The notes beneath the pieces are model-generated. The model was not told the origin of the DNA, searched no databases, and worked only from the letters and a program-made list of their open reading frames with translations. This document shows positions 8,062 through 31,371 of a DNA stretch of 64,000 bases, in pieces (within the stretch, counting starts at the first letter, position 1; every line of letters starts with the position of its first letter). The DNA comes from Pseudomonadota bacterium (GTDB taxonomy: Bacteria; Desulfobacterota; Desulfovibrionia; Desulfovibrionales; Desulfomicrobiaceae): positions 372,001 to 436,000 of the forward strand of contig JAHIQM010000016.1 of assembly GCA_018902545.1 (NCBI GenBank). Direction: 5' to 3'. The translations under genes and the position numbers were made by a program.

Positions 8062-8414
8062 GCGGAGCCGGACAGGCTGTCGCTGCCGGCCGCAAGGCCG
8101 GGGGAGGAAAGTCCGGACACCACAGGGCAGGATGCTGGATAACGTCCAGCGGGGGCGACCCCGGGAAAGTGCCACAGAAACAAACCGCCCGGACATGTCC
8201 GGGTAAGGGTGAAAAGGTGGGGTAAGAGCCCACCAGTTGTCGCGGTGACGCGGCAAGCTCGGTAAACCCCATCCGGTGCAAGACCAAATAGGAAGGTGAC
8301 CGGCCCGGTCACGACCCTTCGGGTAGGTTGCTGGAGACGGCGGGTAACCGCCGCCCTAGAGGAATGACAGCCGCCCGGCAACGGGCACAGAATCCGGCTT
8401 ATCGTCCGGCTCCG
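8062..8414 (+). ncRNA. rnpB: RNase P RNA, bacterial type A
   Basis: The catalytic RNA of RNase P, which trims the 5' leader of tRNA precursors. The 5' and 3' ends pair (GGAGCCGGAC with GTCCGGCTCC, helix P1). Conserved blocks are present: GAGGAAAGTCCGGAC near the start, the ACAGAAA stretch, GGTAAACCCCAT (part of helix P15/P16 area with the GGU that binds tRNA CCA), and GACAG-x-CCGCCC/ACAGAATCCGGCTTA at the end. A run of T follows at once (8415-8422), which serves as terminator. Ends are accurate to a few bases. Confidence 0.97.
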
Positions 8415-8422
8415 TTTTTTTT
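8397..8422 (+). terminator. 3' end of rnpB with T-run
   Basis: The closing strand of the rnpB P1 helix is followed by eight T (one break), just four bases before the ATG of ispDF. Termination of rnpB here is likely; ispDF must then have its own promoter inside rnpB or depend on readthrough. Confidence 0.55.
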
Positions 8423-27833: not shown

Positions 27834-28301
27834 TCAGGCCAACAGGGCGCGGATCTCTCGCCGTGCAGCCTCCAGAAACTTGGGATACTTCTCCCTGATT
27901 GGGGCAGACAATTCCATGGACCAGTCGCTGATGGTCAGAGGCTCCATGCCGATGACCAGCAACTGCGGTTTGTTGCCGAGCAGTTCCGCCATTTTGAGGG
28001 AATCAAGAAGATCGATGTCATGCAGGGACAGGCGCTGCTGGTAATTATCGCGCAGGTTCTCTTCCGTAAAACGGTACACCGTTCCCGGTTCCCGGCCGCC
28101 CTTGACCGTGTCCAGCACAAGGACAAGCTCGTAGCGCTGAAAAATATAGAAAATATCCTGCGTGAAAGTGGCACCATCCATAAAATCGACTTTTTCCAGA
28201 TCCCACTCTTCCTCCCGTCCCAGATCCTGCACCGCGTGCACACCAACCCCGTCGTCGGTCAGCAGCAGATTGCCCACTCCCAGAACCAAAAGTCGTTTCA
28301 T
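27834..28301 (-). CDS. hysD: [NiFeSe] hydrogenase maturation protease
   Basis: 155 residues of the HyaD/HupD endopeptidase family. GVGNLLLTDDGVGVHAV at the start holds the nickel-sensing Asp; MDGATF near residue 40 and the DTVKGG segment match the conserved core; a late His (SLHDIDLLD) is the usual third ligand. It cuts the C-terminal tail of the large subunit after the His of the last Cys-x-x-His motif, once the NiFe(CO)(CN)2 site is loaded. It lies 112 bases downstream of the large-subunit stop on the same strand, beyond a terminator hairpin. Confidence 0.92.
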   Translation of the reverse strand: MKRLLVLGVGNLLLTDDGVGVHAVQDLGREEEWDLEKVDFMDGATFTQDIFYIFQRYELVLVLDTVKGGREPGTVYRFTEENLRDNYQQRLSLHDIDLLDSLKMAELLGNKPQLLVIGMEPLTISDWSMELSAPIREKYPKFLEAARREIRALLA

Positions 28302-28362: not shown

Positions 28363-28393
28363 CTAAAAAAAAGGGCCGGTTTCCCGGCCCTTT
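28363..28393 (-). terminator. Intercistronic terminator between hydrogenase genes and protease gene
   Basis: On the minus strand, the stem AAAGGGCCGG/CCGGCCCTT (28393-28371) is followed by eight U. It sits between the hydrogenase large subunit and the protease, so the protease may be made from readthrough or from its own promoter, at a lower level. Confidence 0.85.
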
Positions 28394-28413
28394 CATGGTT
28401 CAGTCAATCCGCG

Positions 28414-29958
28414 TTAGTCAATGTTGACAACGTGTTCTTCACCGGTCTCAGCGTGCAGCACGTGCACGGCACAGCCCAGTCACGGGTCGTATGAGCGAAC
28501 TAGGCGCCCAATATTGACAGGATTCTTGATGTCAGGAACCGGCACACCGATGAGGGATTCCTCGATCGGACCGCGCTGGCCCATGTCATCTCTGGGGTTT
28601 GCATTCCAAAGGGTGGCAGACACGACCTGATAGTTGTCGATCTTTTTATCTTTGATCTTCAGGTAGTGCAACAGGGCCCCACGGGGAGCTTCGGTAAAGC
28701 CGGTGCCTTCGGCAGCATCCGGAATTTCGGACGCGACGTATGTTTCGGCGCCAGGCTGAACCTGCTTGAGCCATTTCTCAACGGCCACGGCGGTGACCCA
28801 GGTTTCTTCGGCACGGGCCACGTGGCGGCCCATGATGGAGAAGGCCTTGTCGCCCAGATCGCGGAAGTTCTTGGCTTCGATGCCGTAGAGATCCTTGAGC
28901 AATTTCTTGCCCACGGGGCTCAGCTCGGGGTTATCCACCCACATGCGCGCCAACGGGCCAACTTCGCAGGCTTTGTCTTTGTAACGGGGGGACTTGACGA
29001 AGCTGTAGGCTCCTGCCTTGTCCGGATTGGGGTTGGTTTCGCCAGCGGTGTAGTGCAGGCCACCGGGGGCCGACTGGTCGAAGAACGAGTGACCAACGTA
29101 TTCCTTGATCAGCTGCGGATCGAATGCTTCGTCCTTGCCGTCAATGTAGACACCGGGCTTGAGCAGGAAGGTCTTGCTGTCGTCGTCTTCGGGGAAAACA
29201 CCGAAGGCGATGACGTTCTTCCAGCCGATGCCGGTCTCGAACAGATCTGTGTATACGGAGCCCAGGGTGTAGACCAGGGGCAGATATTCCTCGACCACGA
29301 ACTTCTGGACTTCCTTGAACCGGGCTGCGTACTCGGCAACCTTGTCGGCAGTGGGAATCTCGGTTGCTCCGCCAACGACCATGCCCTGAACGTGAGGCAT
29401 GCGGCCACCGAACATGGCAACCATTTCGTGACAGATGCGGCGGATTTCAAGCGCCTTTAAGTACTGGTTCAGTCCGTAGGTGTTCGTTGCTTCGGCCTTG
29501 GCCGGATCCTTGATGCGATCCGTCAAAAGGTCCGCATTGGCGTACCGGGGCACGAAGGGAGAAACATCCGGACCTTTGACGTAATCCAGGGCGGCCAGAT
29601 GGTAGAAATGCAGGATATGAGACTGCAGATAGTTGGCGCCGAAGATCAGGTTACGGGTGATGCGACCGTTGGTGGTCACTTTAACGCCGAAGGCGTCGTC
29701 CTGGGCCATGACGGAAGCCGTACAGTGTGCCGTGGGGCAAACGCCGCAGATGCGCTGCACGATCTGGGAGGAATCCCTGGGATCGCGGCCGCGCAGGATC
29801 TGCTCGAACCCGCGGAACATGCCGCCGGAACACTTGGCGTCTACGACCACGCCATCTTTAACTTCAACTTCAATCTTGAGATGGCCTTCGACCCGAGTCA
29901 ACGGATCTATGGCAATCTTAACTTTCCCGTCAGCTGCGGGAGTAGCTGCTTGTGACAC
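28414..29958 (-). CDS. hysA: [NiFeSe] hydrogenase large subunit, selenocysteine encoded by UGA
   Basis: 514 residues when the in-frame UGA at 28482-28480 is read as selenocysteine. Motif L1 is RICGVCPTAH near residue 70. The C-terminal L2 motif reads DP-UGA-LGCAVH: Sec takes the place of the first Cys of DPCxxCxxH and bridges nickel and iron. After the final His come 15 residues, the tail removed by the protease. A frame that stops at the UGA would lose half the active site, while downstream residues match known [NiFeSe] enzymes, so recoding is near certain. The enzyme oxidises or makes H2 in the periplasm; Sec gives oxygen tolerance. It starts 15 bases after the small subunit. Confidence 0.96.
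28452..28468 (-). promoter_or_regulatory. Bacterial SECIS-like hairpin after the hydrogenase UGA
   Basis: On the minus strand the UGA is followed by 11 bases and then the perfect hairpin CGTGCA-CGTGC-TGCACG. A hairpin at this distance with a GU in its apical loop is what SelB recognises in bacterial selenoprotein mRNAs. It lies inside the coding sequence. Confidence 0.8.
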
Positions 29959-29973: not shown

Positions 29974-30921
29974 TTATTCCGCTACATAGAAAGGAGACTT
30001 TCCATCCGGAAAGTCCGGTTCCACACAGCCGATGCACACGGCGTTCTCGACACACCAGTTAATGCCGTTGTTCCAGCGACGCTTGGCACAATCGGCATAG
30101 GTGGACGGACCCTTGCAACCGAGTTCGGCCTTACAGCCGGGCTTGGTGAAGGTTTCCGAGAATTCGGAGTTGTCGTATTGATCAAGATACGGACAGGTCT
30201 CGTGCAGGTTTTCGCCGAAGAACAGCATCGGACGCCCATCGTCATCCAGGTCGGGAAGCGGATGTTCCGTGGGATTGAGCACATGGCTCCATGCTGCCAC
30301 CAGCGTGCCGACCATCCAGTCCGGATGGGGCGGGCATCCGGGCACGTTGACCAGCAGCTTGTCGATCTTTTCATCAGCGAAGAAATCGCGGAGGCTTTTC
30401 GCTCCGGTGACGTTGCCAGCAGCTGCCGGAATGCCGCCGTAAGCGGAACAGGTCCCGATGCCGACAGTGGCAAGAGACTTGGGTGCCAGATCGCGAATCA
30501 GCTCCATCATGGATACTTCATGGTGTTGGCCCTTGGCGTCCAAGGTTTCACCGACGATGCAGTAGCGACCTTCCTTGGCGGTGGGGATGGAGCCTTCCAC
30601 CAGCAAGAAAAAGTTGCCTTTAAACTTTTCAGCAATTGCGTACATGTGTTCCAGCGCCATCTCACCCTCACTGGCCATGACCGTGGGATGATACTCAAGG
30701 CTGATTACATCCAGCAGAATCTCCTTGATTCTGGGATGAACAGCATTAAGCAGAGAAACGGAACATCCAGTACAACCCTGTCCCTGTACCCAGATGACCG
30801 GAGCTTTTTTGGCCCCTTCGGTCATTGCGTGCAGTATGCCCGGATGATAAATCTGGGAGATTCCCAATCCGGCGACACCTGCGGAGCACAGTTTTACGAA
30901 CTCACGTCTGCTAAGACTCAT
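29974..30921 (-). CDS. hysB: [NiFeSe] hydrogenase small subunit, Tat-exported
   Basis: 315 residues. The N-terminus SLSRREFVKLCSAGVAGLG is a twin-arginine signal (SRREFVK) that carries the folded dimer out of the cytoplasm. Cluster ligands: GCTGCSVSLLN (proximal), GTCSAYGGIPAA, NVPGCPPHPDW, then the distal and medial clusters in CPYLDQYDN, CKAELGCKG, CAKRRWNNGINWCVENAVCIGC. In [NiFeSe] enzymes the medial cluster is [4Fe-4S] rather than [3Fe-4S], in keeping with the extra Cys. ATG 30921 has GGAGGAGGG; the upstream extension is not needed. First gene of the unit; a minus-strand TTGACA at 31012-31007 may be part of its promoter. Confidence 0.95.
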   Translation of the reverse strand: MSLSRREFVKLCSAGVAGLGISQIYHPGILHAMTEGAKKAPVIWVQGQGCTGCSVSLLNAVHPRIKEILLDVISLEYHPTVMASEGEMALEHMYAIAEKFKGNFFLLVEGSIPTAKEGRYCIVGETLDAKGQHHEVSMMELIRDLAPKSLATVGIGTCSAYGGIPAAAGNVTGAKSLRDFFADEKIDKLLVNVPGCPPHPDWMVGTLVAAWSHVLNPTEHPLPDLDDDGRPMLFFGENLHETCPYLDQYDNSEFSETFTKPGCKAELGCKGPSTYADCAKRRWNNGINWCVENAVCIGCVEPDFPDGKSPFYVAE

Positions 30922-31371
30922 ACCCTCCTCCTTCAAAAAGGTAATAGCGTGCAGAGACTTCGGCCTTTTTTTCACGAGCATTCTGATATCCCTAAATTTA
31001 TTGATATGTCAACGCAGTTTGAATCGAAAATCATGATTCTAGGCATATGCTAACGACTACACATACTGATCATCACTCCGTGATATCATTCTAATTAACA
31101 AGCCTTCTCTGTAATACTAAATATTAAATCATAACACCATTTGACAGACCATCTCCTGCTTGTGTCGGCCATATGCAGAGCACTTTATGCTGAAAACGTA
31201 GCGGATTTTTTTGTCCCGCGCGATCCAGGGATGGAAACAGGCCGGTCCAGGGTTTTCAGTTGCGCCTGGGGAAATATGCGCAGGTCGCTCGGCAGGGAGG
31301 CGTTCATATTGTTCTTTCCTGCGACCCGTGGTAATTAAGCGGAATATCAAAGCGTTCCACGGGAGGCGGAT
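30922..31371. other. Intergenic region between hydrogenase operon and binding-protein gene
   Basis: About 450 bases, AT-rich between 31000 and 31140. It contains a possible -35 (TTGACA, minus strand, 31012-31007) for the hydrogenase genes. No gene or repeat recognised; several short open frames lack ribosome sites. Confidence 0.4.

Follow-up and report, generated by a model that had tools for sequence, protein, structure and literature searches.

The hys locus

The window (the whole 64,000-nucleotide stretch of DNA that was analyzed) carries on its minus strand the genes hysB (29974..30921), hysA (28414..29958) and hysD (27834..28301), assigned to the small subunit, the large subunit and the maturation protease of a [NiFeSe] hydrogenase, respectively. 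The hysA frame runs from a GTG start at 29958 to a TAA end at 28414 and encodes 514 residues when its sole internal TGA, codon 493 (28480..28482), is read as selenocysteine (Sec). The mechanically called open reading frame (ORF) terminates at this TGA. The initial annotation had proposed that the protein continues past the stop in the same frame with LGCAVH and a 15-residue tail, and the translation agrees: the residues around codon 493 read SYDP-U-LGCAVH, followed after His499 by the C-terminal maturation tail VLHAETGEEHVVNID (28417..28461, minus strand). The TGA is the first codon of the C-terminal nickel motif, giving DP-U-x-x-C-x-x-H as had been claimed. The translation also contains RICGVC, which has the form RxCGxC and which we take to be the N-terminal half of the hydrogenase nickel site.

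NCBIfam profile searches assigned all three products to hydrogenase families. The large subunit scored 886.7 bits with the HysA model NF045518 (cut-off 780), and the protease ORF at 27834-28301 scored 242.3 bits with the HysD model NF045519 (cut-off 190). The ORF at 29974-30981 scored 533.3 bits with the small-subunit model NF045520 (cut-off 470) and 23.3 bits with the Tat-signal model TIGR01409 (cut-off 16.7), both scores coming from this longer mechanical ORF; we chose the hysB start at 30921, giving a product with the twin-arginine signal MSLSRREFVK.

The top-ranked solved structures for HysA were 4kl8_L (1104 bits) and 1cc1_L (1098 bits), both aligning without gaps over query residues 2-499. 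In both chains an X is printed where the window has the TGA, and the chain ends at the His that precedes the tail. We take PDB entries 1CC1 and 4KL8 to be the [NiFeSe] hydrogenase of Desulfomicrobium baculatum. With this enzyme the window HysA shares a gap-free alignment over the whole solved chain, the position of the non-standard residue and the terminal His; the alignment contains scattered substitutions only and points to no functional difference. The periplasmic, selenocysteine-containing large subunit of 5JSU/2WPN, presumably the Desulfovibrio vulgaris Hildenborough enzyme, belongs to the same family. It is farther from the window HysA (782 bits vs 1104), and its alignment has gaps, one of them of eight residues near residue 148. 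In 5jsu_B, LGCAVHVLHAE follows the active-site position, which is printed as C. Translation, PDB alignment and NCBIfam models together support the assignment to a selenocysteine [NiFeSe] large subunit made in the initial annotation, and hysA very probably reads through the in-frame stop, placing selenocysteine in the hydrogen-splitting site.

The D. baculatum operon, as described in passages of PMC10362691, comprises the large subunit, the small subunit and a specific protease, with Sec as U493 and a truncated chain of 499 residues. The small-subunit and protease genes are common to that operon and the window locus, and the window numbering (Sec 493, His499) agrees with the numbering in those passages. 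The nearest named contig came from an uncultured Desulfomicrobium (94%), and the closest same-genus genomes reached 95%; the genus given to the window is based on these matches.

Elsewhere in the genome, hypD was found, as was a second [NiFe] large subunit of the Cys type, which reads DPCIACGVH (L001, G000:C3:293935-295422). A protease-like gene near the latter (C3:295577-296026) scored 126.6 bits, under the HysD cut-off. A search of the whole window against Rfam at gathering thresholds matched only a class A bacterial RNase P RNA (8064-8417, plus strand, 320 bits) and one tRNA.

Conservation of the TGA among relatives

We surveyed 348 genomes of the order with the window HysA as query at E <= 1e-100, a threshold that excludes Cys-type enzymes, so that the survey is no measure of how frequently Sec was replaced by Cys. 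A HysA relative was found in 91 of the 348 genomes, with 93 matches in total. At least one TGA was present in 88 of the 93, and the other five were fragments ending before residue 493 (G083, G262, G078, G347 and one of two from G233, with an internal TAA); these counts register the presence of a TGA, and its position comes from the fetched loci. Thirty of the 93 matches came with loci, and 40 of the remaining 63 were fetched, hand-picked for spread. Two matches (G210 and G067) have two TGAs each. In the hysA of one genome (G210; L130), the second in-frame TGA lies at a conserved Trp, after SATL, and was set aside as a likely error or decay.

The C-terminal motif was readable in 88 of the 89 hydrogenase loci, yielding 72 distinct 90-base contexts. 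The remaining locus (L042) has a frame break near its end, where another frame ends RVIRAFDP-stop. Because the loci were drawn by similarity to the window HysA, the sample favors Sec-type relatives; within it, the codon at position 493 was TGA in all 72 contexts, with a script that also permitted Cys, and LGCAVH followed the TGA in every printed context (by eye). The contexts are distinct over 90 bases, many of their hairpins are identical, and some loci apparently come from the same genomes. The conservation of the TGA exceeds chance.

The initial annotation had named a sequencing error, with TGC or TGT misread as TGA, as a way in which its reading could fail. The true product would then be a Cys-type [NiFe] hydrogenase, in line with the TGC or TGT found at this codon in farther relatives from other groups and with the DPCIACGVH of the genome's second large subunit. 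However, independent genomes carry the same TGA in every distinct context, 88 of the 93 order matches contain a TGA and the other five stop short of the site, and the genome has the Sec machinery described below, which together make a sequencing or assembly error extremely unlikely.

A true stop, in a gene that has decayed or that yields a 492-residue protein, would fit the end of the mechanical ORF at the TGA. It would also accord with substitution counts over the 20 codons after the TGA in 37 relatives, in which non-synonymous changes were more numerous in 19, synonymous changes in 13 and the two equal in 5; these mixed counts, which alone show no selection on the protein, were left out of the supporting evidence. 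Against a true stop, LGCAVH is retained in 72/72 contexts, the 15-residue tail is found in 16/16 same-genus genomes matched (L104-L119), and the residues past the TGA are present in the crystallized relatives. We consider termination at codon 493 highly improbable.

Selenocysteine machinery in the genome

The genome examined comprises 3.7 Mb in 22 contigs and is 99.8% complete. It contains one each of selA (617.9 bits), selB (360.9 bits), selD (331.7 bits) and tRNA-Sec (87.4 bits), all exceeding the curated cut-offs, and thus the bacterial Sec-decoding system of selA, selB, selC and selD, whose absence had been the other concern raised in the initial annotation. Among 14 control genomes, selA exceeded its cut-off in 1, selB in 2, selD in 2 and tRNA-Sec in 5, and matches below the cut-off were common. 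The SelD gene has its own in-frame TGA (AAG-U-AAKLAP; L014, G000:C17:16043-16963), so that this component of the Sec pathway is itself a selenoprotein. One in-frame TGA is also present in the gene for a formate dehydrogenase alpha subunit that exceeds its cut-off (L177, G000:C15:246724-249747). Because of these two genes, this cell probably requires Sec decoding regardless of hysA.

A SECIS-like hairpin after the TGA

A SECIS-like hairpin with six pairs and the five-base loop CGUGC (28458-28462) lies at 28452..28468 on the minus strand, just after the UGA; its annotation is based on pair counts, codon entropy and compensatory changes. With the T of the TGA numbered 0, bases 14-19 pair with bases 30-25. 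The six pairs, which were selected after inspecting the sequences, are standard in 72, 71, 72, 72, 72 and 72 of the 72 contexts, one pair being broken in L146, and the next outward position (13-31) is paired in none. The GU of the loop is retained across the variants listed. Pair 17-27 is G-C in 63 contexts, T-A in 5 and C-G in 4, and is never unpaired. On a protein tree that left out the Sec region, and that was reported without branch support values, Fitch parsimony gave three changes for this pair and three per side. When the 3' letters of the pair were shuffled, 0 of 2000 shuffles retained 72 paired contexts. These compensatory changes are as expected of a SECIS element and suggest that the hairpin is one, with binding of SelB as a prediction.

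Codon choice was also restricted around the site. Codons +4 to +7 have a codon entropy below every same-residue background column (11 Ala, 6 Val and 7 His columns), and Leu +1 and Cys +3 likewise fall below their backgrounds, which for Cys comprise 2 columns only. Pro -1, outside the hairpin, is similarly low in codon entropy, which counts against a hairpin-specific signal. In the window alone, the fold stability of the 63 bases from the TGA gave a z of 0.55, with 137 of 200 shuffles folding at least as well, and with synonymous resampling 2878 of 20000 trials yielded the complete set of six pairs. Since neither result is supportive, the case for the hairpin rests on conservation and covariation.

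The bacterial SECIS model given in passages of PMC13188914 is a stem-loop 3' of the UGA with an apical loop of 3-9 nt, a G in either the first or the second loop position and 16-37 nt from the UGA to the loop; above-chance fold stability is not a required part of the model as stated there. The window hairpin fits this description, with the loop CGUGC, a G in second position and 17 bases from the UGA to the loop.

The motif was found in 46 of the 61 Cys-homologue loci L043-L103 (47 rows, with L049 twice), and all six pairs were present in 3 of the 46; for L055 the first motif match was taken in this count, which differs from its row in the Cys-type tail table. The three Cys-type homologues that still form the six pairs (L083, L084 and L092) may do so by chance or as a remnant.

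UGA 493 might instead be decoded as another amino acid by ordinary read-through. According to passages of PMC10362691, D. baculatum variants carrying Cys or Met as residue 493 gave soluble, active enzyme in E. coli, so that some activity does not strictly require Sec; the same passages state that no version of the SECIS could be made for E. coli that left the protein unchanged. Here, however, complete Sec machinery and a covarying hairpin accompany the TGA, and the six pairs are seen in so few of the Cys homologues that ordinary read-through seems to us scarcely credible as the explanation for codon 493.

The maturation tail and its protease

The 15-residue tail and the adjacent protease, which the initial annotation had linked through cleavage, are supported by the translation, by the ends of 4kl8_L and 1cc1_L at the equivalent His, and by the NF045519 match. 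HysA thus has both an extension beyond the C-terminal His and a cognate protease gene, and cleavage is predicted. According to passages of PMC10362691, co-expression of the protease in E. coli left the large subunit uncleaved.

The codons of tail residues 1-4 supply the 3' arm of the SECIS-like hairpin, and a Sec-type enzyme with this arrangement could therefore not dispense with those residues. Among the 71 contexts with a complete end (in L035 the contig stops before the tail does), tail lengths range from 4 to 25 residues. The shortest tails, VLHA (4 residues; L168 in G067 and L169 in G069), end right after the codon with the last paired base, and in G067 and G069 even the best protease matches (152.7 and 150.9 bits) fall short of the 190 bits required for HysD. 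Among Cys-type rows, the tail is absent in 15 of 47. At the third tail residue, 9 contexts have Asn or Asp in place of His, always together with a matching silent change in Val498, and these trace to three inferred changes. In L146 this residue is Gln, which breaks one pair of the hairpin.

In six of the genomes tested, grouped as having short or divergent tails, no protease match exceeded the HysD cut-off; in seven others one did. The tails had been seen before this grouping was made, a tail of the normal 15 residues occurs in one genome of the six, and G070, among the seven, also carries a second hysA with a 10-residue tail. All six genomes below the cut-off still have protease matches at E 1e-35 or better. 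Tentatively, and with the balance somewhat against it, the removable tail of this enzyme class may owe its form to the RNA signal in addition to the protease. The weaker link, between protease match and tail type, lowers the odds of this idea. The idea does not appear in the literature passages considered here, and we make no claim that it is unpublished.

A terminator-like hairpin between hysA and hysD

The gap between hysA and hysD contains an intrinsic-terminator-like hairpin followed by a T run (28365..28394, minus strand), with a fold z of -3.99. A similar element was found in 18/18 same-family sequences (shuffle mean 3.9) and in 56 of the 71 relatives whose flanks were long enough (shuffle mean 14.55), using a looser terminator scan that was written after the hairpin had been seen. 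The standard promoter and terminator scan reported one promoter-like and five terminator-like sites, near the shuffle expectation, and the hysA-hysD hairpin was not among them. A hysD-like frame follows downstream on the same strand in 54/71 relatives, many of whose flanks cover only about 480 bases. The hairpin may lower expression of the protease relative to the subunits and may set their ratio. Its position between the two genes counts against the proposed reading of the locus, as does the lack of cleavage in E. coli.

Proposed mechanism and implications

We conclude, with a probability of roughly 0.97, that the hysB-hysA-hysD locus of this Desulfomicrobium-like bacterium encodes a [NiFeSe] hydrogenase with Sec at residue 493, a SECIS element, predicted tail removal by HysD and predicted Tat export through HysB. 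Observed directly were the frame itself, the assignment to the family, a genome equipped for Sec decoding, and a hairpin that is conserved and covaries. By analogy with relatives and with [NiFe] hydrogenases in general, this organism would insert Sec, cleave and export the enzyme and use it for H2 chemistry, in the following way. The hairpin just after UGA 493 would recruit SelB, delivering Sec-tRNA, and Sec493 would become a nickel ligand. Once the metal site had been built, HysD would cut after His499 and remove the 15-residue tail, and the mature large subunit would join HysB and be exported by means of the HysB Tat signal.

The initial annotation described the gene as hidden behind its in-frame stop, which does not hold. 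According to passages of PMC4730141, annotated [NiFeSe] sequences of sulfate reducers were truncated at the in-frame opal codon and were read through in that study, with SECIS elements reported; an NCBIfam HysA model exists, and cloning of the D. baculatum enzyme, with Sec as residue 493, is described in passages of PMC10362691. The finding is already known in its main points, from PMC10362691 (U493, the 499-residue chain and the protease) and PMC4730141 (the truncated annotations), as far as these passages go. The window enzyme is an ordinary one: for its close, crystallized relative, the selenocysteine, the tail and the maturation protease have all been published.

The main value lies in showing that the in-frame stop was interpreted correctly from the bare sequence. 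Truncating the gene in an annotation would drop two nickel ligands, the SECIS and the tail, but curated models already cover the family. The covarying hairpin provides comparative evidence for the Sec signal, and the pair counts show which bases are held in nature.
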